Shown: positions 2,486 through 19,903 of the stretch, piece by piece
How the letters are laid out: the number at the start of each line of letters is the position of its first letter
Position numbering within the stretch: the first letter of the stretch is position 1
IMG/VR virus record: IMGVR_UViG_3300010375_000056
Coordinates: 1-20,581 of that record
From: a virus
DNA length: 20,581 bases
Reading direction: 5' to 3' (one strand)
Made by a program: the position numbers and the translations under genes
The notes under the pieces: model-generated
Database searches by the model: none
The model's input: the letters and a program-made list of their open reading frames with translations, nothing else
What the model was told of the DNA's origin: nothing

Positions 2486-3661
2486 TTACGGTTGGTTGCC
2501 CCATACAGATGTGGTGTCGGCGTCGAAGTCGATCCAGGCCTTGTTACTGGTCCAGGACATCCATGAGCCGGTGTTGATGAACACGTTCGCGGTGAGAGTC
2601 GGATATGACTTCACACCAGTTGAGTCGCTCGAGAAGATCTGTTCGGTGACTCGTTTGGTCATCGCGACACCGTCAATGTTCTGGAGCTCCACCAGATCTC
2701 CGAGGTTATAATGCTGCCCGTAGATATACGGACAGTTTTGGCTGATTTCACCATCGAAGCCTTGGAAGACCTGAGCTTTCGCCAGTGCATCCTTACCGCG
2801 CTGTATGAGAGCACTGGGGACGTCAGTGTAGCCAGCTGCGGTGGTGATGTCACTCGCGTCGACCGTGAGAACACGCCTTTGTAGACCTGAGATCGTCGGA
2901 TCGACATTCGGACCGTAGACGGTTTGGTAACCATCAGTCGAATATACGTATGCGACGTTCTTCGACTGGTCGATGGTGGTCAGCTCTTTGGTGTTCTGAA
3001 GGTTGTCCAGGTTCGGAGAGAATATAACCGGCGTCAACAGCGTTTGCGAGCTGGTTCGGTCGCTCCCCGAATATACATCGAAGTACATAGTCCCAGGTTC
3101 CTGTCGCAAGAACCTGAAACCAAGACTCCACACGGATCCAATCCCCGTGAGACCATTGTACAACGTGTCCGGCCTGAGTTTCACGACGATCGGATCAACT
3201 GGTTCCGGAATGTTCGAAGAGATCAGCGAAGACTCGACGACGCCCGGTATGATGTCATATATGTTGCCGACACCAGTCACGCAAATATCGTGGAAGAGCT
3301 TCCGCATGAGATCCGCGGGAGCCATCGTGATATTCCAAGTGGGTTCGGTGGTCAAGTCGACGTTGTTGTCTCTGGCCACGCGATCGATCAAGATGGCTTC
3401 GTACGATCGACCCTTCACCATCAGAGTCCTCGAACCGTTGACGCTAGCGTCGTCCTCTACAGATTCCACCCTCATCACGTAATTCGATTTGTCCATGGCC
3501 AAATATGTGTCCGCCGTGAACAACCGTCGAGTACCCGGCGTCGAAACGATCGAGAGTTGGAAATCGCCGTGGGTGTTGAACCTCTCCGTCCAGATAAGAG
3601 AGATGTATTGGTCCACGACATATTCTCTTCGGAGCAAAGGGTCCAGGGCGTAGATCTCCAT
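2486..3661 (-). CDS. Tail-associated (Tal/hub) protein, ReqiPepy6 Gp37-like (391 aa)
   Basis: This is probably the tail hub protein that closes the tail tip below Dit. The sequence matches the Siphovirus ReqiPepy6 Gp37-like family. The N-terminus (IYALDPLLRREYVVDQYISL, then WTERFNTHGDFQL) and the following beta-rich region (YVMRVESVEDD, LMVKGRSYEAILIDR) are the usual hub fold. The C-terminal part (YGQHYNLGDLVELQNIDGV) resembles the last hub domain. No peptidase or lysozyme domain is fused. I chose the ATG at 3659-3661 because it overlaps the Dit stop as TGATG. An in-frame ATG at 3700 would add 13 residues and a 40-base overlap. The order after tape measure and Dit is the standard siphophage one. 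Confidence 0.8.
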   Translation of the reverse strand: MEIYALDPLLRREYVVDQYISLIWTERFNTHGDFQLSIVSTPGTRRLFTADTYLAMDKSNYVMRVESVEDDASVNGSRTLMVKGRSYEAILIDRVARDNNVDLTTEPTWNITMAPADLMRKLFHDICVTGVGNIYDIIPGVVESSLISSNIPEPVDPIVVKLRPDTLYNGLTGIGSVWSLGFRFLRQEPGTMYFDVYSGSDRTSSQTLLTPVIFSPNLDNLQNTKELTTIDQSKNVAYVYSTDGYQTVYGPNVDPTISGLQRRVLTVDASDITTAAGYTDVPSALIQRGKDALAKAQVFQGFDGEISQNCPYIYGQHYNLGDLVELQNIDGVAMTKRVTEQIFSSDSTGVKSYPTLTANVFINTGSWMSWTSNKAWIDFDADTTSVWGNQP

Positions 3662-4497
3662 CAGAGCGCACCGAACCGCTTGTTGTACGAGATGCTGCAT
3701 GGAACACCGACACCCGCTGCAGAAGCTCTGACCCAGTTGTTCCCCGGAGCAAATTTCGCCCAGGTTGACTGAAGAGACACTGCGTAGAGAATCGAGCTCG
3801 AGACTCCGCTTCTGAGAAGGGTCGCGTACTTGTTGCCGGGAACGGTGCTGATCGTGACCACATCACCAGACAAGAACGGATTTACCACATCCATGCTCGT
3901 GGTCACGTTGTTTCCATCCGTGTTGTAGATCACGAATTCAGACAACGTTCTGTTGATGTTGATCGTGAAGACGTAACCCGTTTCGGTTGTACCCGCGTAG
4001 TTGATCAGAGTAGCCGTCGGGTCGCCGGTCGTCATACCAGAGACCACGGTGGGAACGGGATCCACGAAGTCCGGGTCGTAGCAGATCAAGGTGACGTCGA
4101 CTTCGGGAGTCTGAGAGAACATCGGCGACTGACAGCTTTCGACACGGCCATAGATGATGTAGCCGTCTTCCTGCCCGTCGATGAAGTCTTCCATGTAGAA
4201 CTTGAGCTGAACCTCGGTCTCAGTCCTGAAGAGCGTGTAGAGGTTGTTCCTCAATGTCCTGAGCGAGGTAGTGGAGTAGTCGACATCGAATCCTATTTTG
4301 AATCCGATCTGACGAGTGTCTCGTCGGGAAGACTGGAAGACCGCTCCATCCTGGTTGGCGAAACTACTGCCGACCAGTGTGGCCTTCACGGGGTCCAGCC
4401 CGGTGATATCCAAGACGTTGTAACCATTCGAGGTATCACCGAGCTGGAGCGTGAGGAGGGCTCCCTGGCTATTGCGTACCTCCACTTTGGTAAACAA
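3661..4497 (-). CDS. Distal tail protein Dit (278 aa)
   Basis: Dit forms the hexameric ring joining the tail tube to the tail tip. The N-terminal half has the Sipho_tail pattern: VEVRNSQGALLTLQLG, a loop ending in DITGLDPVKATL, then QIGFKIGFDV and the helix SLRTLRNNLYTLFRTETEVQ, with YGRVESCQSPMFSQTPEVDV closing the belt domain. The C-terminal half is a beta sandwich (YVFTININRTLSEFVIYN, then SGDVVTISTVPGNKYATLL). The start is TTG (4495-4497), with AAGGGG 5 bases upstream, and it overlaps the end of the tape measure gene by 29 bases. The position between tape measure and Tal supports the call. Confidence 0.85.
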   Translation of the reverse strand: MFTKVEVRNSQGALLTLQLGDTSNGYNVLDITGLDPVKATLVGSSFANQDGAVFQSSRRDTRQIGFKIGFDVDYSTTSLRTLRNNLYTLFRTETEVQLKFYMEDFIDGQEDGYIIYGRVESCQSPMFSQTPEVDVTLICYDPDFVDPVPTVVSGMTTGDPTATLINYAGTTETGYVFTININRTLSEFVIYNTDGNNVTTSMDVVNPFLSGDVVTISTVPGNKYATLLRSGVSSSILYAVSLQSTWAKFAPGNNWVRASAAGVGVPCSISYNKRFGAL

Positions 4498-7400
4498 GGG
4501 TGCCCCTTACAGCGGATAGTTGGTTGTTGGTCTGCCGATAGATTTCCGTGTCGGACAGAGCCTTCGGTGAGTAGTTGTTCTGTGTGAAGTTGTATGTCGG
4601 CGTCGTGGGTTGCCGGTTGAATGTATTGTCCGTGGAGGTGTTCCTCGAGTTGTTTCGAAGATATCCCTCGGAGGCATTTGTCGCTCCGTAGTACGAAGCA
4701 GGGTTGCTGAGGTTGATCGGATGAGCTGGGTCGCTCACGTCGAACACAGACCCATTGAAGTTGCTCATGTCGAGAACGGGCTTGATCTTCGGATTGAATT
4801 CCACTGCGTCGAAGTGGTCGCCAATCAAAGACATGCTCTGCGAGACGACGTCGAAAGCGTTCTTCGCAACCTTGGAATGCGCGTCGATCACTATGCCCGA
4901 ATTGTCCTCTACACCCATACCCCACCCGGCCATGCACCAGAAACCCATTTCTGCGTACCTCGTGGACGGGGAATTGATCCCCAGCCAGTGGAGAGGCGCC
5001 TTGATGGAGTCTTTGGCGATCTGCAGAAGCGTGTCAGCGACTTTACTCGCGCCAGCTTCGAGACCTTGGATGAGCCCGTCGATCATGTCTCCGCCCATCT
5101 GGATGAGAGCGGTGACGACCTTCGGGGTGTTCTGCTTGAACCCTTGCCCCAACGATGTGATGAACTTGATCGTCATGTCGAAGGCCGATTGAACGATCTT
5201 CGGCAGGTTGTCGCTGATGCCCTTGGTGAACGCGACAATCAAGTCTGTAGCAGACTGCACGATCTTGGGCATGTTGCGTGCCAGACCTTCGAGAAACCCG
5301 GAGATCAGATTGACACCCGCGTCTATCAATTGCGGAATGTACTTGGCAGCAGTTTGTAGCAGTTGCGTGAGCAACTTGAGGAAGAGGTCTACGACCTTCG
5401 GAACCAGTTTACCTAGCGTGTCCAGAATCGTGCTGAACAGAGTCAGGAACGCCTTCGCGATCGCTGGTGCTGATTGAGCCAAGGTCTCCACAAAGACGAC
5501 CAAGCCCAGGGCGAATTGCTTCGCCGCGATGGGAATCAGGTTCAAGAATGACGTAATAGCAAACACCATACTAGCGGTGTTCGCAGCCATTCCCACTGCG
5601 AGTGCCGTATAACCAGTGGAGAGGAAGACCAATCCCAAACCAGCAGACAAAGCACCCAACCCCAAGAGAGCAACAGCTCCTGCGAGGCTGAAAAGTACCG
5701 GAATGACTGGCTCGATCAGAGCGCCTCCCAGCGCCAAGACGACAAAGACTCCCGCAAGCTCGACGAGGCTCGAGAGGATGTTCCCCCACGACATGTCGCC
5801 CATGGTTTTGAGCGCAGGTGCCAAAATGTCGATTGCTGCTGCCATAACGAGAAGCGCAGCTGCTCCAGGAAGTGCTTCCGTCATGAGTATGGCCGCACCT
5901 GCGATGAGCACCAGTGCTCCCGCCAATTCGGTCAGACCCTTGGCTATCTCCGTCCAACTCTGAGCTCCCATTTTGCCGAGAGCGTCAGTGATCATCCCCA
6001 GAGATGCTGCGACAATGAAGATCGCTGCCGCAGAGAGAAGCGACGACGGCGGAAGAAGGTAGAGAGCCCCAGCGATGAGCGTCAGAGCACCAGCCATCAA
6101 AGCCAAACCGTGAGCGCCTTGACTCCAGGTTTCCTTGCCCATCTTGTCCAGCGCATTGCCGATCAATCCGAGCGAAGAAGCGACGATCAATACCCCCGCA
6201 GCGGAGAAGACCGACGACGGAGGAACAAGCTTCAAAACCAGACCGATAGCAGCCAGACTGCCCGCCATGAGGTCGAGTCCCTTGGCGATCGTTGTCCAAC
6301 TGTACTGTCCGATTTCCTTTACTGCTTTTGCCAGAATCAAGATCCCGTATGCCAGGATCGTCACTCCGAGACCTGTCCCGGCTCCAGCAGTGTCCGCGTC
6401 AGCGATGACCGAGAAAAGCGTCAATGCGCCTAGGACACCCGCCAACCCGGTGAGGCCTTTGCCGAGTTCTTCCCAACTGATCCCGCCGAGTTGCACCAGA
6501 ACATCGCCTAGGATTTTGACACCCTTGCCGATACTCGCGACGCCGAAACCGACAGCGATCATGTGGTTCGAATCGCCCATCAAGTTGACACTGAAGGCCA
6601 AAGTGGTGAGCATGACGCTGATGGCCAGCAACCCCTTTGCGAGGGAGTTCCAGTCTTCCTTCCCGAGCTTTATGACCGAACCCGAAAGAACATCGATAGC
6701 TCCCGCCAACAAGATCAGAGAGAGCATCATGACGGGCATTTTGACGAAGCCTTCAGAACCGATGAACTTCTGGAATATACCCATGGAAGTTATCAGCTGG
6801 GTGAACATCACAGCCAACGCAGTGGTGGACCGTTCGAGAGCGGGTCCATTGATGGCCGAAAGCTTGTCGGCTGCGACAGCAAGAATGGCTATCGCTGCGG
6901 CTATCTCGAGAAGAGTGGCCGCTTTGAGCGTTGTCTGCATCGACTCGAGTGTCTTGGTAAGACCCTCGAACGACTCCTTGATGGTGTCAAGGAAACCGTT
7001 GATGACGCCAGGCTTGTGACCGCTTCCGACGTAGTCCACGAATTTCTTCAGAAGCACGATCAGGCCGCCGAACAAACCAGTGTCGACAACACGCAACAAA
7101 CCCGTGAAGTCGATGCCTGCTGATCCGTTCGTGAAGCTCTTGGCCATGTTCTCAAAAGCTTTTGAGATCTTGTCCGCCAAAGGCTGAACACCATGGTAGA
7201 AGGCATCGATGTGATCGCGGACATAATCGAAGGCAGCGGCGAGAAGCTTGCTCTCGCTCAGAACTGAACTTAGAGAATCCTTGACTGAACCGATGGACTT
7301 CTGTGCCTTGTCTCCAACGTCGAGCTTGTCGAACAAGTCCCTGAGGAGCAGACCGAGAGCCTTGACCAAGGTGATCGGAACCTGGAGAACTTCCTGAAGC

Positions 7401-8926
7401 TTCAGGAAGAACTCGTTGAACCTCTGCCCAGTCTCCACTGCTTCCTTGAGCCGGACCAGGAAGTCGCCAACCCGAGCTCCGAAGTCGAGCAGATTGCTCG
7501 ATCCCCTGGAAACGGAAGAACCAAAGACAGCTTCGAACGTCTGGCCCAACTTCACGAGAATATCGTAGACGATCTTCACCGCGGAGAAGAGGCCGTCGAA
7601 GATCTGCCTCAGATCAGCACTAGTATGCGCTCCTATTTTGAACTTTTCAGTCAGCTGCTCGAAGACGTCTGTCAGATGCTTCAAACTCTGGGCGGTAGCC
7701 GGTGGGAAGACGTCTCTGAATGCTTCCCCGATCGGCTTCATGATCAAGCCGAGATCTTGGAACGCTTGGCCGAACGCCTTGATGAGTTCGGTCCTACCGC
7801 CTAGCTTCGCCCATCCCTCCAGGAGGTTGTTCAGCGCGTAGACCGGTCCGGTGAGTGCGTTCTCAGCAACGTTGTGGACCTTGGTGAAGAGGTTTGTCGC
7901 TTGATCAATGTTGCCGAAGATCGTCTTGAAGATCGCGCCATATGCGGTTGCCACCTCCTCCTTGAGCGCGTCGGCAAGCTGCGTCATCGTCTTGATGTGC
8001 GTAGCAGAACCGAGTGCGGTCTGACCCAGAGCCTGAATCTGCTTGGCCTGCTGAGCCGTGAAGCCCATAGCCTTGAGCTGAGCAGCACTGAGGTCGCCAG
8101 TGAACTGAGAGAGTGTCTTCGTGAGGATGTCGGATGTCAACCAACCCTCTTGAAGACTGTTGCGGAAGCTTCCAGCCTTCTTGATGATCGCATCGATGTT
8201 GGTGCCAGCGGCTCGAGCGGTGTTCTCCAGAGCAGTCTGGAACACCTTGCCGCCGAGACCAGCGTTGACGACGGAGTTCCAGTCCTGAAGCTGAACCTTG
8301 CCGGATGCGATGGCCTGGGACAGCTGATACATCGCGGTGGAAGCCTGCTGCGAACTAGCGCCAGACAGAGCCGCGAGGTTGGCGATACCCTTGATGGACT
8401 CGACCGAAGTCTTCAGATCCACACCGGCGGCCGTGAAGGTGCCGATGTTCTGAGTCATCTCAGAGAAGTTGTAGACCGTCTGGTTCGCGTAGGTGTTCAA
8501 CTCAGCCAAGGCCTTGTTGACGTCACCGATCTTCGTACCTTCAGAAGCCGTGTTCGCCAAAATCGTCTGAACCGCGTTGATCTGGGTTTCGTAGTTCTGG
8601 AACCCAGCCTTGATCGGGTCGATCGTGAGGGACTTGGCCATCTGCAGGCCAACGTCGACGATCTTGTTTGTCAGATTCGAGAGAACGGTGTAACCGATCA
8701 CCGACAAAGCGGTGAATCGACTCGCCACGTGATCCACGCCGTTGGCAAGAGGATCCATCGTGACGGATTTGACTGCTTCGCCGAGACTGGCAAAACCCTT
8801 GGCGGCACCTTCCAAGCTGAGACCCTTGTTCAGCTTGTCCATTGTGCCGAGTGTGACGGCGGCGTTGTGCTCAAACGACGTATTGTCGAAGAGCATTTGA
8901 ACGACCCGCTGGTCGATGTTGCTCAT
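4469..8926 (-). CDS. Tape measure protein (about 1485 aa)
   Basis: The tape measure sets tail length and is threaded inside the tail tube during assembly. Residues about 60-280 form the usual tape-measure N-terminal domain (DPIKAGFQNYETQINAVQT, LNTYANQTVYNFSEMTQNIG, KVQLQDWNSVVNAGLGGK). Residues about 670-1150 are hydrophobic helical repeats of about 55 residues, and about 1165-1295 are shorter repeats with PKIVQSA. Near 1310 comes GINSPSTRYAEMG, and near the C-terminus YNFTQNNYSPKALSDTEIYR, both typical of the family. I chose the ATG at 8924-8926 because it overlaps the previous stop as ATGA and GGTGA lies 7 bases upstream. The in-frame ATG at 8947 lacks a usable site. At about 0.15 nm per residue, the tail would be near 220 nm. 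Confidence 0.93.
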   Translation of the reverse strand: MSNIDQRVVQMLFDNTSFEHNAAVTLGTMDKLNKGLSLEGAAKGFASLGEAVKSVTMDPLANGVDHVASRFTALSVIGYTVLSNLTNKIVDVGLQMAKSLTIDPIKAGFQNYETQINAVQTILANTASEGTKIGDVNKALAELNTYANQTVYNFSEMTQNIGTFTAAGVDLKTSVESIKGIANLAALSGASSQQASTAMYQLSQAIASGKVQLQDWNSVVNAGLGGKVFQTALENTARAAGTNIDAIIKKAGSFRNSLQEGWLTSDILTKTLSQFTGDLSAAQLKAMGFTAQQAKQIQALGQTALGSATHIKTMTQLADALKEEVATAYGAIFKTIFGNIDQATNLFTKVHNVAENALTGPVYALNNLLEGWAKLGGRTELIKAFGQAFQDLGLIMKPIGEAFRDVFPPATAQSLKHLTDVFEQLTEKFKIGAHTSADLRQIFDGLFSAVKIVYDILVKLGQTFEAVFGSSVSRGSSNLLDFGARVGDFLVRLKEAVETGQRFNEFFLKLQEVLQVPITLVKALGLLLRDLFDKLDVGDKAQKSIGSVKDSLSSVLSESKLLAAAFDYVRDHIDAFYHGVQPLADKISKAFENMAKSFTNGSAGIDFTGLLRVVDTGLFGGLIVLLKKFVDYVGSGHKPGVINGFLDTIKESFEGLTKTLESMQTTLKAATLLEIAAAIAILAVAADKLSAINGPALERSTTALAVMFTQLITSMGIFQKFIGSEGFVKMPVMMLSLILLAGAIDVLSGSVIKLGKEDWNSLAKGLLAISVMLTTLAFSVNLMGDSNHMIAVGFGVASIGKGVKILGDVLVQLGGISWEELGKGLTGLAGVLGALTLFSVIADADTAGAGTGLGVTILAYGILILAKAVKEIGQYSWTTIAKGLDLMAGSLAAIGLVLKLVPPSSVFSAAGVLIVASSLGLIGNALDKMGKETWSQGAHGLALMAGALTLIAGALYLLPPSSLLSAAAIFIVAASLGMITDALGKMGAQSWTEIAKGLTELAGALVLIAGAAILMTEALPGAAALLVMAAAIDILAPALKTMGDMSWGNILSSLVELAGVFVVLALGGALIEPVIPVLFSLAGAVALLGLGALSAGLGLVFLSTGYTALAVGMAANTASMVFAITSFLNLIPIAAKQFALGLVVFVETLAQSAPAIAKAFLTLFSTILDTLGKLVPKVVDLFLKLLTQLLQTAAKYIPQLIDAGVNLISGFLEGLARNMPKIVQSATDLIVAFTKGISDNLPKIVQSAFDMTIKFITSLGQGFKQNTPKVVTALIQMGGDMIDGLIQGLEAGASKVADTLLQIAKDSIKAPLHWLGINSPSTRYAEMGFWCMAGWGMGVEDNSGIVIDAHSKVAKNAFDVVSQSMSLIGDHFDAVEFNPKIKPVLDMSNFNGSVFDVSDPAHPINLSNPASYYGATNASEGYLRNNSRNTSTDNTFNRQPTTPTYNFTQNNYSPKALSDTEIYRQTNNQLSAVRGTLVYQSGGTQ
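5560..6830 (-). repeat. Tandem hydrophobic repeats coding within the tape measure
   Basis: The tape measure region contains about six to seven degenerate units of about 55 codons (about 165 bp). Each is built on the pattern LxKMGxxSWxEIAKGLxxLAGALxLIAGA followed by LxPPSSLLSAAAxxIVAASLG. The clearest neighbouring units start near 6135 and 5969, about 166 bp apart. Outer units are more diverged (KLGKEDWNSLAKGLLAISV, KTMGDMSWGNILSSLVELAG). These segments could span membranes, as expected for tape measures thought to be released into the host membrane during DNA entry. That role is established for some phages and inferred here. The boundaries are approximate. Confidence 0.7.
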
Positions 8927-9300
8927 GCGGAAGTCACCGCCCTCCATACCCTTTCGGCGATTCGGTCAAATATCGGTGCCATCGCCGGGTTGATGTAGTC
9001 CCGGCCTTGAACGTAGCCTCCAGTGCCGGTTCCGTATCCATACTGGAGCATGATCGCTACTGGGAAGTCTGACTCTACGTCGGTGTTGGTCCAGTAGATC
9101 GTGTACCTACCGTTTCTGGCCGACACGTCGAAACTCCACGAACCCGCAGCGAGTCCAGTGTCTGTCGGCGTGGCCGAGGAAAGGGCCGCGACGCCTTCTT
9201 GTCCTGCCGACTTCAGAATATCGAGGATGTTCAGTTTCACAGCTTTCTGCAAGAACTGTTCAGTCGACTTGAAATCACCAGAGACAGTGTAGGATATCAT
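8923..9300 (-). CDS. HK97 gp10-like neck/tail-completion protein (125 aa)
   Basis: The protein has the HK97 gp10-family layout: an N-terminal helix with AVKLNILDILKSAGQEGVAA, the signature TPTDTGLAAGSWSFDV (compare the family's 'P-x-D-T-G-x-L' turn), beta strands, and the C-terminal QYGYGTGTGGYVQGRDYINP followed by the closing helix. The family normally works at the head-tail joint or in tail completion. The ATG at 9298-9300 has AAAGGAG 5 bases upstream. The stop overlaps the tape measure start as ATGA. Its location directly before the tape measure, rather than between head closure and tail terminator, is unusual for HK97-type order, so it may act on the tail rather than the neck. Confidence 0.75.
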   Translation of the reverse strand: MISYTVSGDFKSTEQFLQKAVKLNILDILKSAGQEGVAALSSATPTDTGLAAGSWSFDVSARNGRYTIYWTNTDVESDFPVAIMLQYGYGTGTGGYVQGRDYINPAMAPIFDRIAERVWRAVTSA

Positions 9301-9314
9301 CGCGGCTCCTTTCT

Positions 9315-11114
9315 TTACGCGGCTTCGACCAACAGGTAGGAAACGACAGACGTGTCGGTAGAGGATGTGCTCTTGATCACGAAACTCGTACCGACCGTGT
9401 GAGCGTTGACGAACAACGCGCCGGGAGTTCCTCCGGGGGTCACCGACCCCAAGATGATCCTGGTGTTGGCTGTCGTCGAGGTGTTGCTGACGGTCACGGT
9501 TCCGGCCACGAGAGTGGCAGTGCCCTGGCGGGCGTTGGTGCCCTCCTTGACTCGGAGACCCTTGCCTGCGAGTCCGATGATGATGTCGGAATCGGAGGTA
9601 CCGACCTGTGCAGTACCCAAACGCTTCCACGTCGTGTCACGAGCAGAGGTGCCGATACCATAAGTCATGGTTCCGTCACCAGCGAGGCGGAAGTTGTCGT
9701 TCGCAGCCACGCCACCTTGGTTTGAACTCAGGATCGTGTTGGCCGAAGAACTGGGCTGAGCTGCGAGCGCAGCTTGAGCCGTGAGACCGGCCGTATAGTT
9801 CGGGGTAGACGTGTAGTTCAGATTCGTGCTGCTGACATCTGCCACCACCGATGGGATGTTGGTCACCCAGTTCGAGGCGGCCGCACCGCTTCCTTCGAAA
9901 CGGGTGTTGATGCAACGAACTTTCTGGCCGGACGCAGCGATGTTGATGCTTTTCTGCACGCCATTCGAACCAGAAGCCACGATGCTCGAGGAGAATCGAC
10001 AATCGCTGATGACACCGGTAGAAGTCCCAGACCAGTTGATCTCGTAGTTCGTACCGGAAGAACCCGAGCCGTTGGCGGTCAAGCCGAGATCCAGAAGATT
10101 GATCGGATTACCCGATCCCTCGATCGAAACACCGTGTGTCTGGCAGTCGGTGATCCTGAGACCTCGTACGAAGAGGCTAGATGCCGCGCCGGTGACGCGC
10201 AGACCTATGACTCCGTACTGAAGAACGCCGTCTGTGATCTGAACGTTCGTAGGAGATCCACCGGCACTGTCCTCGATAAGACAGTTGGCTCCAGCAGAGC
10301 TGTTGGTCGTGGATCGAACGTTCACCATGAACAGATCTCTGACGGCGCCCTTGATGTGGAGATTGCTCCCCGTGCCATTTGCCATCTGCAGGTTGACGTT
10401 TGAGAACTCGAGATCTTGAGCGTCCTCGATGAACAGGCCGTCCATATTGGCGCCTGCGCCGGTTGTCACACCCATGGTTCGGAGCCAAATATCGCTCACT
10501 TGACCGTGGTAGATGTAGCTGTTCGGCGAATTGCCCTTCAGATGCATCCCCGCGGAGCATTGCTGGGCGAAGATCCTGCTGATCATGAGACCGTCGGGGT
10601 TGTTCCCGGAGGAGTCGCTGACGGCCTCTATGCACCACGAGTTGATGAATTGAAAGGTGCAGTTGTCGATCTTAGCGTGCTTGCCGCCGTAGACGTAGAT
10701 CGCATCCACGACGGGATTACCGGGCGTAGAGCTGGAGTTGGCTCCGGCTATCGTGATATCTTCCACGATGCAGTCTTGGCCGGTGATCGTGACGGCGGCA
10801 GTTCCGGTGAAAGTACCGCCGATCATGATCCGGGTTGCTTCGGGGCCTGCGCCCCTCAATGTCGTCCCGTCGGCACTGAGCGTGAGAGACGCGGTTGACG
10901 TCAGAAGGTAGTTTCCCGGAGGGACGAACACGATGCCGCCACCGCCGGACGAAGTGACCGCCGAAATGGCATCCGCGAAGGCGGTGTCGTTTGACGTGAA
11001 CGCGTCGCCGACTGCTCCGTAGTCCATGACGTTGTAGACTAGGGAGCCTTTGTCCACCTTCTCCGCGAGAGCAGTCTCAGTGGCTGCCGCGGTCATTGCT
11101 GTGACTGTAGCCAC
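9315..11114 (-). CDS. Tailspike or appendage with pectate-lyase-like beta helix (599 aa)
   Basis: This is probably a trimeric spike that binds or cuts a surface polysaccharide. A short Ala/Thr-rich head (residues 1-25) is followed by YNVMDYGAVGDAFTSNDTAF, the typical start of a pectate-lyase-3 right-handed beta helix. Then come helix rungs such as VFVPPGNYLL, CIVEDITIAG, AKIDNCTFQF and GVISDCRFSS to about residue 420. Residues about 490-599 form a separate C-terminal domain (DTTWKRLGTAQVGTSDSDII, RQGTATLVAGTVTVSNTS, TSFVIKSTSSTDTSVVSYLL) of the type found at the ends of phage fibres. The start is GTG (11112-11114), 12 bases after the preceding stop. An overlapping ATG at 11116 is out of frame. 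No catalytic residues can be assigned by eye. Confidence 0.85.
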   Translation of the reverse strand: MATVTAMTAAATETALAEKVDKGSLVYNVMDYGAVGDAFTSNDTAFADAISAVTSSGGGGIVFVPPGNYLLTSTASLTLSADGTTLRGAGPEATRIMIGGTFTGTAAVTITGQDCIVEDITIAGANSSSTPGNPVVDAIYVYGGKHAKIDNCTFQFINSWCIEAVSDSSGNNPDGLMISRIFAQQCSAGMHLKGNSPNSYIYHGQVSDIWLRTMGVTTGAGANMDGLFIEDAQDLEFSNVNLQMANGTGSNLHIKGAVRDLFMVNVRSTTNSSAGANCLIEDSAGGSPTNVQITDGVLQYGVIGLRVTGAASSLFVRGLRITDCQTHGVSIEGSGNPINLLDLGLTANGSGSSGTNYEINWSGTSTGVISDCRFSSSIVASGSNGVQKSINIAASGQKVRCINTRFEGSGAAASNWVTNIPSVVADVSSTNLNYTSTPNYTAGLTAQAALAAQPSSSANTILSSNQGGVAANDNFRLAGDGTMTYGIGTSARDTTWKRLGTAQVGTSDSDIIIGLAGKGLRVKEGTNARQGTATLVAGTVTVSNTSTTANTRIILGSVTPGGTPGALFVNAHTVGTSFVIKSTSSTDTSVVSYLLVEAA

Positions 11115-11126
11115 ATTGCCTACTTT

Positions 11127-11927
11127 CTAGAGAGAGGACGAACTCACCGTGTAGGTGTCGGAGTCGATGTAAACCGCACTGTCCCACGTGAGCTGAGCAG
11201 TGTTCGAATCCAACATGAACAGAGCGCCGTCAGGCGCCGTCATCGTGAAGGTGCCATCGCCGTTGTCGGTGACGGTAAGACCTCCGTTGGAATCGATGGC
11301 ACTGATGATTTCAGTGAACGGAGGAAGATGCGGAGGAGTCGTGTCCGTTCCGTACAGGGCGTTTTCCATGTATGTGAGAACGGGTTCAGAGAGCTCCCTT
11401 GAGTCGAGAATGTAATGTGCAGTCCTTTGATAGCCACTCACCGCCGGGGGCAATGCGGTGAGGGACCAAGCGAAGTCGGCAACATTGACGTTAGTCGTGT
11501 CGGACTTGTAGCTGTGGATCGAAGGCGAAGCCAAGACGTTGTACACGAGATGGATCCTGTAACCCAGAGCACCCGTCAGATCATTTCCGATGAACGTCCT
11601 GTAGGAAAGACTGAACGGCTTCCTCTTCTGCCGAGTAGCAAAGAAGCCGGTACGAACAGAAGCGTTGCCGTCGCAATCTTCGAATTCGTCAGGGTACGTG
11701 TACGCGGACAGCTGTGCTTGGTACTCCTCGGGCGAAGCGAGGTTTGAGTACTTGTCGCCGTCTACGTACAGCGGTTTCGCAGCTCCGCCTGAGATGTTCT
11801 CCACGACTGAAGTGAGACCACTCCAGGGGACACCCGGTTGATTTCCAATGTACAGAACACCTCGGTCGACGCCTGACTGATAGATGCGTGAGCCTGCCGC
11901 ACCCCAATTGATCGCGGTCAAGGTCAA
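11127..11927 (-). CDS. Second major-tail-protein paralogue (266 aa)
   Basis: Over about 200 residues this aligns by eye with the major tail protein at 12486-13361. Shared landmarks are SGVDRGVLYI/TGVDKGVLFI, LSAYTYPDEF/LSAYTYPDAW, SYRTFIGNDL/CYRTRIGNDL, GYRIHLVY/GYKLHLVW, FAWSLTALP/FTWSVTCVP and ENALYGT/EDTLYGT. It lacks the C-terminal beta domain of the first copy and instead ends in a different one (LTVTDNGDGTFTMTAPDGAL, then SAVYIDSDTYTVSSSSL). The start is TTG, overlapping the chaperone stop as TTGA, which suggests translational coupling and lower expression. It could be a minor tube ring, an adaptor for the adjacent spike, or a tail terminus component. The paralogy is firm; the role is inference. 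Confidence 0.8.
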   Translation of the reverse strand: MTLTAINWGAAGSRIYQSGVDRGVLYIGNQPGVPWSGLTSVVENISGGAAKPLYVDGDKYSNLASPEEYQAQLSAYTYPDEFEDCDGNASVRTGFFATRQKRKPFSLSYRTFIGNDLTGALGYRIHLVYNVLASPSIHSYKSDTTNVNVADFAWSLTALPPAVSGYQRTAHYILDSRELSEPVLTYMENALYGTDTTPPHLPPFTEIISAIDSNGGLTVTDNGDGTFTMTAPDGALFMLDSNTAQLTWDSAVYIDSDTYTVSSSSL

Positions 11928-12463
11928 CCCCTACTTTTCATCTCGGCTCGCCGGGCTTCGTTGAGTGCGCGGTTCCGTGCTGCCACTTCAGACGGAGTGA
12001 GCTCTTTTTCGGGTTGGTTCTTCTCGTTGCAGACTCTCACGAGAGTCAACAGTTTGTTGAGATGCCAATGCTGGCACTCGAAGGGGATGTTGAGAGCCAC
12101 CATCCAGTAGTAGATGATCTCAGCGGTGATGATCTCTCGAGCTTGTTGCGCTTTCTCGTCCTTGAACCAGGTCGCGGTCTGACGAGAATTGATGTAGGCG
12201 TTGATCTCTTCGATGTTGCCCACCGTCATTCCGTCATAGACATCGTCGGGAACATTTTCGGTGAGTGTCATCGCCTTGATGTACTCGAGGAGATCCTGAC
12301 CGCTCTTCTCTTCTCTCGAGATGAACGGCTTCTCTGTGATCGCCTCCCATTTTGACAGAGAAGCCAGAGAGTGCTCCAGTGTCAGTTCGTACTCCCCGAC
12401 GATGAACTCTTCGGTGATCTCATCGAAGAAGTCCTCGCCGTAAGGGACTTTGATCTTGAGCAC
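11924..12463 (-). CDS. Tail assembly chaperone (179 aa)
   Basis: This is probably the chaperone that holds the tape measure while the tube polymerises. Features are a short beta N-terminus (LKIKVPYGEDFFDEITEEFI), then a helical body (LEHSLASLSKWEAITEKPF, EKSGQDLLEYIKAMTL, EIITAEIIYYWMVALNIPFE) and a charged tail ending ARNRALNEARRAEMKSRG. It follows the major tail protein directly, the standard chaperone position. The start is GTG (12461-12463) with an AAAGGAG site 8 bases upstream. It is one complete frame: the alternative frames after its only A-rich run close quickly, so the usual G/G-T frameshift product is not evident. The tape measure is separated from it by three other genes. Confidence 0.8.
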   Translation of the reverse strand: MLKIKVPYGEDFFDEITEEFIVGEYELTLEHSLASLSKWEAITEKPFISREEKSGQDLLEYIKAMTLTENVPDDVYDGMTVGNIEEINAYINSRQTATWFKDEKAQQAREIITAEIIYYWMVALNIPFECQHWHLNKLLTLVRVCNEKNQPEKELTPSEVAARNRALNEARRAEMKSRG

Positions 12464-12485
12464 TCTCTGGTCTCCTTTCGTTCGG

Positions 12486-13361
12486 CTAGAAGGTGATCAG
12501 CCACTCGTTGACGTTCGGGTCCGGGATGTAGTACCCGGCCGTCGGCGTCGCCATGAACACGGTGTTGACCGTGATCGTGACGGTGCCCGTGACGAGGGTG
12601 GCCACGCCGTTCACGACCTTGTAGTACTGCAGGCCGGTGACGACGGGGATGGTGACCACGTGGGTCGAGGAGTTGTAGGTCGGAACCGTCGGGATCGCAG
12701 ACGACATGGTGCCCGCGAACATCGCCAGGACCTCGTCGGGCAGCGGCAGACGACCGTTGACGCCGGAGGTGCCGTAGAGCGTGTCCTCCAGAGTGGCCAG
12801 TGCGCTGGGGTTGACCTTGGTCGAGTCGATCACCAGCGTAGACGTCGGCTTGTAGCCGGTCGCGCTGATCGGCACGCAGGTGACGGACCAGGTGAACTCG
12901 TTCGCGGACGGGCTGTCGTTGATGGTGGACCAAGCCTTCTGGGACGGAGCCGCGGTGCAACCCCAGACCAGGTGGAGCTTGTAGCCCTCATCGGTGCCGA
13001 CCAGGTCGTTGCCGATCCGGGTTCGGTAGCAGAAGCCGAAGGTCTTGCGGCTCTGCTGTCCGACCGCGACGCCGATCTCCGGCTCCACGGTGCCGTCGCA
13101 GACACTCCACGCGTCGGGGTAGGTGTAGGCCGAGAGGTCGCAGCCGAAGTACTCCGTCGAGGTCAGGTTCAGGTATCGCGTGTTGTCGGCGTAGAGGGCC
13201 GTGGCGGTGCCGCCGACCGGCTTCTCGGTGACCTTGGTCAGACCGTTCCACGCGTAGGCGTTGACGTAGTTCCCGTTGTTGTCCGGAATGAACAGGACAC
13301 CCTTGTCGACGCCAGTCTCGTAGACGTGGTTGCCGACGGTGTCCCAAGTGAGAGCCACCAT
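12486..13361 (-). CDS. Major tail (tube) protein with C-terminal beta domain (291 aa)
   Basis: This is probably the protein that polymerises into the tail tube. The core (residues 1-215) is beta-rich (VYETGVDKGVLFIPDNNGNY, LTKVTEKPVGGTATALYADN, LSAYTYPDAW, FCYRTRIGNDL). Residues 223-291 form a separate Ig-like surface domain (VVTIPVVTGLQYY, ATLVTGTVT, TAGYYIPDPNVNEWLITF) matching the C-terminus of the capsid protein. The ATG follows GAGGAG with 9 bases spacing. Codons end strongly in G or C compared with neighbouring genes, as in the capsid gene, consistent with very high expression. It sits between tail terminator and chaperone, and a diverged second copy lies at 11127-11927. Confidence 0.88.
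   Translation of the reverse strand: MVALTWDTVGNHVYETGVDKGVLFIPDNNGNYVNAYAWNGLTKVTEKPVGGTATALYADNTRYLNLTSTEYFGCDLSAYTYPDAWSVCDGTVEPEIGVAVGQQSRKTFGFCYRTRIGNDLVGTDEGYKLHLVWGCTAAPSQKAWSTINDSPSANEFTWSVTCVPISATGYKPTSTLVIDSTKVNPSALATLEDTLYGTSGVNGRLPLPDEVLAMFAGTMSSAIPTVPTYNSSTHVVTIPVVTGLQYYKVVNGVATLVTGTVTITVNTVFMATPTAGYYIPDPNVNEWLITF
12489..12695 (-). repeat. C-terminal beta domain shared with the capsid protein (tail copy)
   Basis: Residues 223-291 of the major tail protein align with residues 618-696 of the protease-capsid fusion. Common elements are VVTIP-x-VTG, a Tyr three residues later, ATL-x-x-G, then GYY and a final NEW followed by alternating hydrophobic residues. This is a protein-level repeat; the DNA is diverged. 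Ig-like C-terminal domains of this kind are known additions to siphophage capsid and tail proteins and are thought to decorate the surface. Confidence 0.75.
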
Positions 13362-13998: not shown

Positions 13999-16089
13999 TC
14001 AGGAGGTGGAGGTGGTCGAACCCACCTCGAAGTGCCACTCGTTGCCCATGCCGTCGGTCTCGAAGTAGTAGCCCGAGGCCGGAACGGCGAAGACGTTGAG
14101 CTCCTGACCGGCGGTCAGGGCGGTCTGTGCGCCCGCAGTCAGAGTGGCGTTGTTGGCCATGTTCTTGTAGACCACGCCGGTGACGGTCGGGATGGTGACC
14201 ACGCCGGTCGCCTTCACGAAGGTCGGAGCGATCGGAGAGGCCACGACGTTGGTCGCCGCGGTGGTCTGGACGACGAGGGCGGACTTGACCTTGACCAGCG
14301 AGCCGGAGATGCGGGTCTCCGTCAGGTACTTGTACTGGTTGTAGTCGATGTCGAAAAAGTCGAACATGCTGACCTCTCCGCCCTTGTTCGCGCCGATGTT
14401 GTAGTCGACCATGTTGACGATGATGCCGATGACGTTCGGCAGCGTCTCCATGACCTCGACGGGGACGATGTCGTCGACCAGCATGGCTGCGGCCAGCTCC
14501 GACTTGTTGTTGTACAGACGGCGGCCCAGGGTGTCCTTGACCAGCAGCATGTTCGCCAGCGTCGGCAGGGTGGTGTAGAACGTCGGCGTGCCGGTGCCCT
14601 TGTAGAAGCGCATGGAGCGCACGACCGCGTCGATCACCTCGACGTACGAGGAGTTCGAGTCGCCCAGGTTGACGAACACGTCGGTCTTGTAGAGCTCGTG
14701 CTCGTTGACGATGGAACGCACGCCGTTGCCGGAGGACGCGGCCGCGGGGTCCGAGATCTTGTCCGGGTCCGCGATGTCGCGGCCGTCGCTGATCAGAATG
14801 GCCCGCGCGACTTCCTCGCGGAGCATCAGGGCCATCTCGCCCTTCATCCACGCCACGACATCGAAGTCAGTGATGTCGATGACGTCGTCGCGGTCGATCT
14901 TCTGCTTCTTGTAGACGGTGGTCGGCCCGGTCGTCCGCTTGGTGACGGTGAACCACTCCTCCTTCTTGTAGTTCCCCTTGATGTAGCCCATCGCGCGGGC
15001 TTCGTCCTGGGTGATGTCGGCCACGATCGACCGAACGTTGGAGAAGGGGGACTTGGAGCACTTGTTGAGGACGCCCTCGACCCACTCCGTCCGCCGCTGG
15101 TTGAACTGCGGGGTGTTGGTGAGGTTCTGGAAGTTCGGGAACAGGACGTCGATCGGCTCGATGCCGTGCGCCAGCTCGTCCGCCTTGAACACGTCGTGGC
15201 TGAAGGCGTACTCGTTGACCAGGTCGCGCAGCGAGGAGACACCGCCGCCACGCTGGGCCAGGTCGAGAATCTCCTTCATCTGGCTGTGCGACAGCCTCTT
15301 CTCGGTCGGCTCGGAGCCGGTGGTGCGCTGCTCGAACACGTTGCGGGTCATGGGGCCAGCTCCTCCCTGGTGGCTGAGGTCGTCCTCGCCGGAGTTGTTG
15401 TTGTTTTCGGAGTGTTCGGCGGAGTTGTCCGCCTCGACGCCAGCCTCAGCGTCGTTGTCGCCATCACCGTCAGGATCCTGAGCGGTCTGAGCCGCGGACT
15501 CGGCGACGGCTTCCACGAGCTTCTGCTGGATCGGCGTCATGCTGTCCCAGATCTCCTGGGCGGTCGGCTCGTTCGCGTTGTCGGTACCGGTCGAGTCGGT
15601 ACCGTCGGTGTTTGTTCGCGCGTCGGAGCTGTGCGAGAAAGACTCGCCGGTGCCGATGATCGCGGCGTCGTCGATCTCGGAGATGTCGCCGTCGGAATGA
15701 CGAATGGTGACCGGGTCGATGAACGCTCCGGGGTTTGCACCAGCCAGGACCAGGCTGACCTCGCGGATCATGCCGTGCATGACCCTCTTGGACTGCTCGA
15801 CCAGCTGGTTGGCGTAGATCGAGAGGGCCTTGATGTCGCCGTGCTTGATCGATTCCTTGACGTGCTGAGCGGCTGCCGTGTTGTTGAAGTAGCAGTCCGC
15901 CATGACGCCTTCAGCCTTGTGACGCAGAACGGCGCGACCGAGGATGTTCTCGGGATTGGTGTGCGAGTGCTGCCAGACGAGAGGAACCGTCTGACCGTCC
16001 ATGTGCTTGAACGCGTCGGGCATGATGGTTCGGCCGTCGGAGCACACGAGGTTGGCCTTGGTGGCCCAGCCACTGAAATCAGGTTCCAT
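13999..16089 (-). CDS. Prohead protease fused to HK97-fold major capsid protein (696 aa)
   Basis: One gene encodes protease, scaffold-like linker and capsid protein. Residues 1-180 match HK97-type prohead proteases: WQHSHTNPENILGR holds the likely catalytic His41, and REVSLVLAGANPGA holds the likely catalytic Ser112. Residues about 180-245 are a helical segment (EIWDSMTPIQQKLVEAVAES) and a very acidic Asp/Glu/Asn linker. The capsid domain follows from about residue 247 (KEILDLAQRGGGVSSLRDLV, VLFPNFQNLTNTPQF, then beta strands). A C-terminal Ig-like domain occupies 618-696. I chose the ATG at 16087-16089 because AGGAGG lies 11 bases upstream; the in-frame ATG at 16140 has no site. It overlaps the portal end by 11 bases. 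Codons are strongly G/C-ending. A second start may exist at 15351. Confidence 0.9.
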   Translation of the reverse strand: MEPDFSGWATKANLVCSDGRTIMPDAFKHMDGQTVPLVWQHSHTNPENILGRAVLRHKAEGVMADCYFNNTAAAQHVKESIKHGDIKALSIYANQLVEQSKRVMHGMIREVSLVLAGANPGAFIDPVTIRHSDGDISEIDDAAIIGTGESFSHSSDARTNTDGTDSTGTDNANEPTAQEIWDSMTPIQQKLVEAVAESAAQTAQDPDGDGDNDAEAGVEADNSAEHSENNNNSGEDDLSHQGGAGPMTRNVFEQRTTGSEPTEKRLSHSQMKEILDLAQRGGGVSSLRDLVNEYAFSHDVFKADELAHGIEPIDVLFPNFQNLTNTPQFNQRRTEWVEGVLNKCSKSPFSNVRSIVADITQDEARAMGYIKGNYKKEEWFTVTKRTTGPTTVYKKQKIDRDDVIDITDFDVVAWMKGEMALMLREEVARAILISDGRDIADPDKISDPAAASSGNGVRSIVNEHELYKTDVFVNLGDSNSSYVEVIDAVVRSMRFYKGTGTPTFYTTLPTLANMLLVKDTLGRRLYNNKSELAAAMLVDDIVPVEVMETLPNVIGIIVNMVDYNIGANKGGEVSMFDFFDIDYNQYKYLTETRISGSLVKVKSALVVQTTAATNVVASPIAPTFVKATGVVTIPTVTGVVYKNMANNATLTAGAQTALTAGQELNVFAVPASGYYFETDGMGNEWHFEVGSTTSTS
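14002..14238 (-). repeat. C-terminal beta domain shared with the major tail protein (capsid copy)
   Basis: This codes for residues 618-696 of the fusion: APTFVKATGVVTIPTVTG, a YKNMANNATLTAG middle, then PASGYYFETDGMGNEWHFEV. The same pattern ends the major tail protein at 12489-12695. The domain probably projects from the capsid surface, as known for similar Ig-like additions. The short Ser/Thr tail after HFEVG is unique to this copy. Confidence 0.75.
15352..15368 (-). promoter_or_regulatory. Strong internal ribosome-binding site at the protease/capsid junction
   Basis: On the minus strand AGGGAGGAGCTGGCCCC directly precedes an in-frame ATG (15349-15351). The GGAGG core is 10 bases and the GAGGAG core 8 bases from the ATG. 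The ATG begins residue 247 of the fusion (MTRNVFEQRTTGSEPTEKRL), right after the acidic linker. Use of this site would give a free capsid protein of 450 residues alongside the full fusion. The Shine-Dalgarno bases also encode Gly-Gly, so chance is possible. Confidence 0.5.
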
Positions 16090-17377
16090 TTTGACTGTTT
16101 CCTCCTGTCCGTGAGAGTTGAAGTTGTTTGACCCCGGCAAGCTGTGCTTGGCTCGGCGGGAACGGTGGCCTTGGAGCTGGTTGCAGCGGTCTCGGTGTTG
16201 GCATGTTGCTGTTCTGAAGCATGTCCGCCTTCTTGTCCTTGGACGGCTTCAGACCGATGGCTGCACGGAGCTCGTTCGGCGTAGCGATCTCGTTGCGAGA
16301 CAGCATGTCGGCGATCTTCGCGAACTCTCCCATCGGAACGAGAGCAAACGGGTCGCGGAAGTAGACGATCGTCTGTCCCTGAGTTCGTGCGGTCTTGGAA
16401 AGGAACGTTCGAGCCATGGCTTCTGTGATGGCCTTGACGATGGGCTCGATGGTCCTCTTGTTGTAGTTGAGCATCGCTTGCTCCGACGCCATACCATTCA
16501 TGATGGTCGCGTCGATGCTGAGCTGCCCATAGAGCATCTCGGTCAGATACTGAATCTGAGCGAGAAGATTGTTCTCAGCAGGACGGTTGAGCTGCGTGAT
16601 CTTCTCGGTTCCGTCTGTGTAGGCGATGCCGTACTTGCTACCCTTGAGTTGGAACTCGATGTCTGTTCGTCGCTGTTCAGCCTGCTGCCTGCGAGCATCG
16701 GACTTGACGACATACGGAAGCTGCACGATCAAGTCGAGCTTGCCTGAGCTAGAGGCCTCGTCCACGGCATCCAACATGTTGAGCTTCCGGATCAGACGCT
16801 GAAGAGTCGAACTTGGCTCGTTCATCACCTGGTAGAAGGGATTCTCGACGATGGAGACCATGCTTTTTGGAAGCGTGATCTGCTGCCTGTACCCCACAGC
16901 CTGGTTATACAGGCTGACGCGAACGTGTTCGGGATACCATGCCACGATTTCTGCAGCCCGAAGCGTGACAACGTCGTAGGCGTTGCTGCTCGTGGGGTCG
17001 ATCGTCGTATCCACCGGAACGATAGCCACGACACCCTTGTCGAACATCGTCAGAACGATGTCTTGACGTAGTTGAGTCGCGGCCTGGTCGATATTGGCTT
17101 CGACGGTGAGACAGTTCTGAAGTCCGCTCACCATGTCTTCCACGTACCTCCCGTCCTTATCTGTTCGGACGTGAGACATATCCACCGCAGCCGCGTCTAT
17201 GGCGATCCTCGTGAGAATCGCTGAAACGATCGATTTCTCGTTCGAGAAGGTCAATCGGGTTCGGTCTGGTCTGACGTTGAACGCATAACCAGCGGCATAG
17301 CCTAGATTCTGCTGTTCATTCTCGTCCCAGTTTCTGAAGGCGTTCCACGCGTGCCTCAAAGATGCACGAAATCCCAT
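16079..17377 (-). CDS. Portal protein (432 aa)
   Basis: The portal forms the ring at the capsid vertex through which DNA is pumped. The layout matches the HK97-family portal. It has an N-terminal region before the clip (LTFSNEKSIVSAILTRIAID), wing strands (DVVTLRAAEIVAWYPEHVRV), and the conserved core near the C-terminal third (TEMLYGQLSIDATIMNGMAS, then RTIEPIVKAITEAMARTFLS). Next comes the typical MLSRNEIATPNELRAAIGLKPS and a disordered proline-rich end (PTPRPLQPAPRPPFPPSQ). The ATG is preceded by a perfect AAGGAGGTGA (17381-17390), the best ribosome-binding site in the window. The gene lies 18 bases after the terminase stop. Confidence 0.9.
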   Translation of the reverse strand: MGFRASLRHAWNAFRNWDENEQQNLGYAAGYAFNVRPDRTRLTFSNEKSIVSAILTRIAIDAAAVDMSHVRTDKDGRYVEDMVSGLQNCLTVEANIDQAATQLRQDIVLTMFDKGVVAIVPVDTTIDPTSSNAYDVVTLRAAEIVAWYPEHVRVSLYNQAVGYRQQITLPKSMVSIVENPFYQVMNEPSSTLQRLIRKLNMLDAVDEASSSGKLDLIVQLPYVVKSDARRQQAEQRRTDIEFQLKGSKYGIAYTDGTEKITQLNRPAENNLLAQIQYLTEMLYGQLSIDATIMNGMASEQAMLNYNKRTIEPIVKAITEAMARTFLSKTARTQGQTIVYFRDPFALVPMGEFAKIADMLSRNEIATPNELRAAIGLKPSKDKKADMLQNSNMPTPRPLQPAPRPPFPPSQAQLAGVKQLQLSRTGGNSQNGT

Positions 17378-19154: not shown

Positions 19155-19565
19155 TCAACCAGCCTTAGCCTTGGCCACCTTGATGGCGGCCTTTCCGATC
19201 GGGCCGTTGACGGTGTTGTGGATGTCGTTCAGAGTCTTGACGACGCTGAGGAAATCCTTCACGTGCCGATGGCCGGACTTGAAGGTGTTGGGCTTCTTGT
19301 TGTTCAGATCTCGGTTCGTTTGCTCCAACTGCAGTCGCTTGTTGAGCTGTTCGAGATCCGCGTTCGACAGAGCCCTCACGCCATGCTGCTTGATCGTGCC
19401 CTTGTGGGCCTCCGCGATGACGTGATCTTCGGAGACGAGAGGTGGCTTTGAAGATGGGCCCTTGCGGCTACCCCACTTCATCCCCTTCACACCGTGGTGC
19501 TCTAGTACCACCCCCAACATGGGTCCGGTAGCGGCACCGGTGGCGGCGGATTCGGGTCGACCCAT
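19155..19565 (-). CDS. HGVKGMKWG-motif phage protein (136 aa)
   Basis: Residues 22-31 read EHHGVKGMKW, then GSRKG. This short motif recurs in otherwise unrelated head-module proteins of phages of Gram-positive bacteria. Its function is not established to my knowledge. The middle is a charged helix (LSNADLEQLNKRLQLEQTNR) likely to form a coiled coil, and the end is a basic amphipathic helix (GPIGKAAIKVAKAKAG). I chose the ATG at 19563-19565 because AAGGA lies 5 bases upstream. The in-frame ATG at 19520 has no site. This start overlaps the connector gene by 64 bases. Its place just before the terminase fits a head assembly or packaging accessory, which is inference. Confidence 0.7.
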   Translation of the reverse strand: MGRPESAATGAATGPMLGVVLEHHGVKGMKWGSRKGPSSKPPLVSEDHVIAEAHKGTIKQHGVRALSNADLEQLNKRLQLEQTNRDLNNKKPNTFKSGHRHVKDFLSVVKTLNDIHNTVNGPIGKAAIKVAKAKAG

Positions 19566-19903
19566 GCTGTTCCTTCCCTTTCAACGCTTATGCGCCATTC
19601 GAATTGTTCGATCTGCTTGTTCATCGCATCGATCGCGAACCCGCTGATCGGCGGGTCGAAGATCATCTTGACACGAAGAGACATGTACGTCTTGACCCGA
19701 TTGAGTGTGGCATCGGTGCCGAGGAAGTCGCTCCACTGGGCAGTGTTGTCCGTGATCGAGAATCCATTGTCCGGGCCGATGCCGAGGTCATGCAGGTCTG
19801 AGAACACAGAGTTGATGTGCATGATAACATCGACGTCGAACACTGTGTAAGACGGGTCGAAACCCAAGACCTTTTTGACACTGTCGAGAATGCTCTCGGT
19901 CAC
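19502..19903 (-). CDS. gp6-like head-tail connector protein (133 aa)
   Basis: The sequence resembles the small helical head-tail connector (phage gp6-like/adaptor) family. It has an N-terminal ILDSVKKVLGF, DVDVIMHINSVFSDLHDLGI, then DNTAQWSDFLGTDATLNRVK and YMSLRVKMIFDPPISGFAID, ending in an EQFEWRISVERE helix. In the family this protein forms a ring under the portal. The C-terminus is a Pro-rich tail (PNPPPPVPLPDPCWGWY) within the overlap with the next gene. The start is GTG (19901-19903) with AAGGGAGG 8 bases upstream. It is unusual that it lies before the terminase, beside the endolysin, rather than after the capsid gene. An unrelated packaging-accessory role cannot be excluded. Confidence 0.65.
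   Translation of the reverse strand: MTESILDSVKKVLGFDPSYTVFDVDVIMHINSVFSDLHDLGIGPDNGFSITDNTAQWSDFLGTDATLNRVKTYMSLRVKMIFDPPISGFAIDAMNKQIEQFEWRISVEREGTAWVDPNPPPPVPLPDPCWGWY

Follow-up and report, generated by a model that had tools for sequence, protein, structure and literature searches.

Gene content of the window

The window, a fragment of 20,581 bases from the IMG/VR collection, carries its structural genes all on the minus strand. From the endolysin end they run connector, terminase, portal, protease-capsid fusion, head-closure-like protein, terminator, a first tube protein (MTP1), a chaperone-like gene (TAC) and a second tube protein (MTP2). Beyond MTP2 follow a spike, a neck-like protein, the tape measure, the distal tail protein (Dit), a Tal-like protein, a minor tail protein and a holin. 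The terminase and portal were identified by comparison with annotated relatives. The features on which the argument turns are the following.

13999..16140, minus strand: protease-capsid fusion protein, 713 residues (Peptidase_S78, E 1.8e-7; PHROG 3270, E 1.3e-220)
12486..13361, minus strand: MTP1, 291 residues, tube fold with a C-terminal Ig-like domain (PHROG 2645, E 3.6e-99)
11924..12463, minus strand: TAC, a putative chaperone-like gene, 179 residues, GTG start (PHROG 4338, function unknown, E 1.5e-69)
11127..11921, minus strand: MTP2, putative minor tail-tube paralogue, 264 residues, TTG start (PHROG 2645, E 5.5e-85)
11127..11327, minus strand: CTD2, approximately the last 65 residues of MTP2 (CTD2 profile, 94 bits in the window)
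11058..11114, minus strand: spike anchor signature MATVTAMTAAATETALAEK, the first part of a shared anchor (matrix score 14.9; profile E 0.018)
9315..11114, minus strand: tail spike, 599 residues, GTG start (Pfam PF12708, E 8.4e-12; PF24146, E 2.5e-23)
8923..9300, minus strand: HK97 gp10 / neck-like protein, position conserved (PHROG 5, E 1.1e-10)
4469..8947, minus strand: tape measure protein, about 1485-1492 residues (full-length profile match)
3661..4497, minus strand: Dit (SPP1_Dit, E 7.6e-11; PHROG 33, E 7.6e-24)

TAC may be chaperone-like, a label taken from the position of the gene; it sits between the two tube genes, a place kept in all relatives. The neck-like gene closes the MTP2-spike cassette ahead of the tape measure gene, which it adjoins at a distance from the head-closure genes, and the same holds in relatives. 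Two further observations concern the other end of the fragment. A head-tail connector-type gene (19502-19903, minus strand; Phage_connect_2, E 1.9e-39) occupies an unusual place upstream of the terminase gene, and small proteins of unknown function share a short HxGxKGMKWG motif (DUF7211), both in the window (19155-19565, minus strand) and at about position 7307 of locus L051.

Two tube paralogues with opposite codon bias

A first-pass annotation of this DNA had described MTP1 and MTP2 as two diverged tube proteins, and most of that description holds. Both open reading frames lie on the minus strand at the coordinates that it gave. The proteins share 38% identity and 57% positives over 213 residues (BLASTP, E=2e-51), and the four motifs named as common to them occur in each (GVDKGVL or GVDRGVL, LSAYTYPD, YRTRIGNDL or YRTFIGNDL, and LYGT). 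Both match PHROG 2645, a "major tail protein" family, and they do differ in C-terminal domain and in codon usage (GC3 0.93 in MTP1 against 0.66 in MTP2). Absence of the tube fold from the second protein would have refuted the idea, and the predicted fold is retained: AlphaFold2 models of MTP1 and MTP2 (pLDDT 86.7 for each) have tail-tube proteins and rings of tube-like fold among their PDB matches. A sequence search of the PDB gave no match for either protein. The MTP2 model reaches tube proteins in Foldseek with E-values down to 1.3e-5, and aligns with a tube chain in VIA over 158 residues (Z 11.7, rmsd 4.3), an alignment that leaves its C-terminal domain outside. That domain, CTD2, is modelled with moderate confidence (block pLDDT about 64-79).

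MTP1 ends instead in an Ig-like domain at approximately residues 222-288 (window positions 12492-12698, minus strand). Homology links this domain to the end of the capsid fusion gene, its C-terminal ~80 codons (13999-16140; 43% over 70 residues, E 2.7e-9), and the same homology was seen in eight relatives tested. It is as if the tail tube and the capsid, both bulk surface proteins, shared one decoration that MTP2 goes without.

The start of MTP2 requires a small revision. A TTG start had been proposed at 11927; a second TTG at 11921 is the better choice because the N-terminus of MTP2 then aligns with those of relatives and an AGG lies 8 nucleotides upstream. This start falls 2 nucleotides past the chaperone stop (TAC ends at 11924). 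The weak start had been listed among the differences between the two tube genes, and it proves to be peculiar to the window phage, since most relatives start MTP2 at ATG or GTG behind AGGAGG-type sites. Start-codon strength was therefore dropped as an argument about copy number: the start signal does not in general mark low expression, whereas codon bias does. The same junction bears on whether a -1 frameshift could extend the chaperone into the MTP2 frame and so yield a TAC-MTP2 fusion that replaces the T domain. The longest MTP2 reading frame in the window lies in the -1 frame and does overlap the stop of TAC, and the junction has a GGGG, but in relatives the two genes lie about 10-20 nucleotides apart, with a Shine-Dalgarno site for MTP2, and in Camille, Michelle, Makai and Argan whole genes separate them. 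Given these gaps and inserted genes the fusion is out, and the chance that it is correct is negligible.

Codon usage was scored per phage, with training on that phage's own capsid gene against its own tape measure gene, the capsid fusion serving as reference. In 18 of 18 phages MTP1 falls on the capsid side (average +0.23) and MTP2 on the background side (-0.33), failing the high-expression signature of a bulk tube protein. Five further contigs split the same way, bringing the total to 23 phages, whose genomes differ greatly in G+C. Within the window the scores are +0.35 for MTP1, -0.33 for MTP2, -0.17 for the spike, -0.24 for Dit, -0.39 for Tal and -0.33 for the portal. The single tube proteins of relatives score positive in eight of nine cases and zero in the ninth. 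From this opposite bias, MTP1 is the bulk tail-tube protein and MTP2 probably a low-copy one, with codon bias taken as a proxy for amount.

A low-copy protein need not be confined to one ring. MTP2 might be a minority subunit scattered through the tube in mixed or occasional rings, displaying spikes along the shaft, as the shared fold and the 38% identity would permit. There is also a precedent in SPP1, whose tube contains an extended variant of gp17.1 at 3:1 (PMC8718954). The codon bias, however, suggests that MTP2 is made far below such a ratio, at the level of the portal, Dit and Tal genes. Moreover, loops at approximately residues 46-69 and 147-153 are conserved in MTP1 and variable in MTP2, as expected if only MTP1 stacks upon itself. 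A scattered subunit is thus an unlikely arrangement, if one with some claim to attention.

Distribution and ancestry of the pair

The tube family was found by tblastn in 243 of 50,697 phage records, at 480 places. The premise that most siphophages have one tube protein is sound in general but fails for this actinophage lineage, in which two are the rule: most of the 243 related records carry both proteins. Two or three copies occur in the Streptomyces, Arthrobacter, Gordonia, Rhodococcus, Curtobacterium and Microbacterium phages examined, and only one in relatives from Lactococcus, Faecalibacterium and Bifidobacterium. The common order is MTP1, TAC, MTP2, variable genes, neck-like gene and tape measure, with extra genes sometimes separating TAC from MTP2. 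The window has this order, with gp10 as the neck-like gene, together with the protease-capsid fusion, and is a new member of the two-MTP lineage.

In a tree of 70 sequences all single tube proteins group with MTP1 (support 98/95) and the MTP2 proteins fall outside. The nearest neighbour of the window's MTP1 and of its MTP2 is the same relative, locus L009 (98/91 and 100/99), which indicates that the pair was inherited together. MTP2 has evolved faster, with a mean site entropy of 1.59 against 1.06 for MTP1. Some relatives encode a third protein with a tube domain (L005:6390-7622; L006:6536-8575; L010:10001-10702; L025:2088-3453; L014:4809-5543; L043:8147-8443). These include one minor-tail-protein fusion, one gene upstream of the capsid gene and one apparent fragment.

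CTD2, the spike anchor and their co-occurrence

CTD2 is private to MTP2: tblastn located it in 174 phage records, a single time in each, and it was not found in MTP1. At each locus that has it, at least one downstream gene starts with a common N-terminal anchor, of which the window and L009 have the first part. The full anchor spans ~48 residues (MATVTGFTAARMQEIE...HLILTRxDGTxIDAG) and was found in 151 phage records, solely in genera with CTD2. The bodies that it precedes are otherwise unrelated, and the genes after MTP2 include a GH46 chitosanase, Collar/Gp10_C fibres, glycine-rich proteins, K1-lyase-type spikes and genes annotated lysin B. In four Rhodococcus and Gordonia phages (L037, L038, L049 and L054) the gene annotated lysin B is part of the spike cassette and lies after MTP2 and before the tape measure, which suggests an enzyme carried on the virion for hosts with mycolate walls. 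The NGxLILxxRDGTxxDAG hairpin that makes up the anchor's second half also turns up by itself, within further minor tail proteins encoded in these cassettes (L044:8201-9991, L046:15544-16362, L043:8446-10716), and is therefore a mobile motif of its own.

In the window the spike has a pectate-lyase-like fold start (residues 27-108) and a K1-lyase C-terminal domain (527-596), an arrangement repeated in L009, the closest relative, whose spike begins MATVTSLTAEAITDALAAK. The window spike has the first part of the anchor at residues 2-17. A matrix trained without the window and L009 spikes ranked 43,708 possible N-termini and placed these two, at 14.9 and 12.1, right behind the true anchors, with the next match at 7.2; this rank rules out a chance match. 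A full ~48-residue anchor was sought in the window spike and rejected, only about the first 16-20 residues matching and the hairpin part missing. By this comparison the spike carries a shortened anchor, and the brevity of the match, with its weak profile score (E 0.018), counts against a docking role in the window itself.

The first-pass annotation had called for a survey of relatives for co-occurrence with the spike gene, and across the loci compared CTD2 and the anchor do go together. Of 32 loci, 27 have both CTD2 and the anchor, five have neither and none has one alone (Fisher p=5e-6, phylogeny ignored). Locus L024 lacks both, and its well-supported sister L023 has both. Among Arthrobacter records 95 contain the tube family, 50 CTD2 and 50 the anchor, and the two counts are equal per host strain (33 and 33 for ATCC 21022, 8 and 8 for B-2979, 4 and 4 for NRRL B-2979). 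At loci without CTD2, such as Mudcat, Michelle and L021, the fibre-like proteins start differently, that of L021 with Mtd_N. In single-MTP relatives no spike was found between the chaperone-like gene and the neck gene; the slot holds nothing, short reading frames or an endolysin (Amidase_3, Amidase_2 or GH25). A strict requirement of MTP2 for a spike was considered and rejected, since in L024 and L025 no accessory gene accompanies the MTP2-type gene, a circumstance that also weighs against a docking role.

Adjacency offers another account of the pairing. The anchor gene usually starts 4-16 bases past MTP2, and joint transfer of such neighbours could yield part of the co-occurrence. Taken further, MTP2 might be a tube-initiator or end ring with no part in spike attachment, resembling T4 gp48/gp54 or contractile tube-base proteins, and its pairing with the anchor would reflect shared transfer. 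The low-copy codon signature would suit such a ring, as would a gene placed between those for the tube and those for the tape measure and Dit. Against it, single-MTP relatives assemble without MTP2, and the pairing is kept at five loci where 0.75-1.4 kb of other genes intervene between MTP2 and the anchor gene. A natural fusion likewise points to attachment. In Arthrobacter phage Michelle, gp18 (L006:6536-8575) joins a third tube paralogue, residues 1-216 (E 3e-81), to the body of a minor tail protein, residues 234-636 (PHROG 14138, E 4e-72). Bodies of this type occur in 120 Arthrobacter phage records. Of these, 14 belong to a near-identical Michelle group, the 14 phages credited with the fusion, and 106 are divergent and annotated minor tail protein among the matches listed. 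PHROG 14138 aligns with the body from its residue 8 onward, which is consistent with a stand-alone protein. An initiator without a spike role accordingly retains a small chance.

A proposed docking ring and its known counterparts

Of the roles first suggested for the second tube protein, the spike-docking ring is favoured by the codon signature, by CTD2, by its pairing with the anchor, by the spike-less slots of single-MTP phages and by the fusion of a tube domain to a minor tail protein. We consider it probable, with appreciable room for error, that MTP2 forms a minor tube ring that docks lateral spikes; the position of the ring, its stoichiometry and the contact between CTD2 and the anchor are inferred. 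MTP1 would build an ordinary tube of some 50 stacked hexamers, as estimated from the length of the tape measure, with its Ig-like domain facing outward. MTP2, a diverged paralogue that keeps the tube fold and is presumably made in small amounts, would contribute one or a few rings to that tube, the likeliest place being its distal end, immediately above Dit. This placement is read from gene order only (tube, MTP2, spikes, tape measure, Dit, Tal). CTD2 would point outward as a candidate docking site and bind the short anchor with which the spike of the neighbouring gene begins, and the docked pectate-lyase-like spike would act at the side of the tail, in adsorption or as a depolymerase. CTD2 and the anchor, the putative docking parts, are conserved, and the spike bodies vary by phage and host.

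A low-copy substitute within the tube, also among the roles first suggested, keeps some probability. A terminal ring had been offered as a further option. Were MTP2 to sit at the head end of the tube, the spikes would be a neck or collar device, a thought encouraged by the neck-like gp10 gene in the same cassette. The MTP2 gene, however, lies on the tip side of MTP1, with the terminator and head-closure genes on the other side. Judged from gene order only, the head-end position is less likely, and we give it a slim chance. We give even odds to a broader reading, in which this large actinophage lineage gained a second tube protein by duplication and adapted it as a dedicated adapter ring. CTD2 would be the standard socket and the anchor the plug for exchangeable spikes, depolymerases or wall enzymes, the tube and the Dit baseplate staying unchanged, and sometimes a tube paralogue would be fused to an adhesin directly.

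At the level of annotation the arrangement is known. Two major tail proteins are mentioned for actinophage clusters AM, AU, AW, BI, CC, DJ and EL (PMC11080557; PMC10652937), which resemble the window in the gene pair, the gene order and the protease-capsid fusion; another report describes a phage with one annotated major tail protein (PMC6893835). The cluster papers note the pair without separate roles, and the present analysis adds the division of labour, CTD2 and its pairing with the anchor. Among the open papers covered we found no published role for either protein, no description of the division of labour or of the CTD2-anchor pairing, and no virion proteomics or electron microscopy of these phages. 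If the docking-ring reading is true, an exchangeable ring of tube paralogues would explain why most such actinophages have two annotated "major tail proteins". CTD2 and the anchor would then amount to a sequence rule for finding receptor-binding proteins, many of them annotated "hypothetical", in phages of Streptomyces, Arthrobacter, Gordonia, Rhodococcus, Microbacterium and Curtobacterium. The reading also makes a definite prediction that cryo-EM and mass spectrometry could address.

The usual view mounts siphophage adhesins on Dit, on Tal or on proteins of the baseplate. Special rings built from low-copy paralogues with a tube fold are familiar from T4 gp48/gp54 and from the tube-base proteins of contractile injection systems. 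Those systems are contractile and their rings serve initiation, whereas the window phage is non-contractile and the role proposed for MTP2 is docking. In the lambda-type G/GT arrangement an overlapping frameshift partner follows G; here the frame after TAC is MTP2, which does not overlap it in relatives. SPP1 gp17.1 and its frameshift-extended variant likewise provide two tube subunits that differ in C-terminal domain, but they come from one gene and the extension is dispensable (PMC8718954). In the window there are two genes, the core has diverged and the codon signature of the second is far lower; MTP2, a separate gene with its own start, is not a frameshift product of the SPP1 type. A further counterpart is the Dit-based attachment of adhesins, for example in JBD30, where a low-copy ring with tube-like folds also holds fibres (PMC11445458). 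The window phage has a normal Dit of its own alongside MTP2, which is a separate paralogue of the tube protein.
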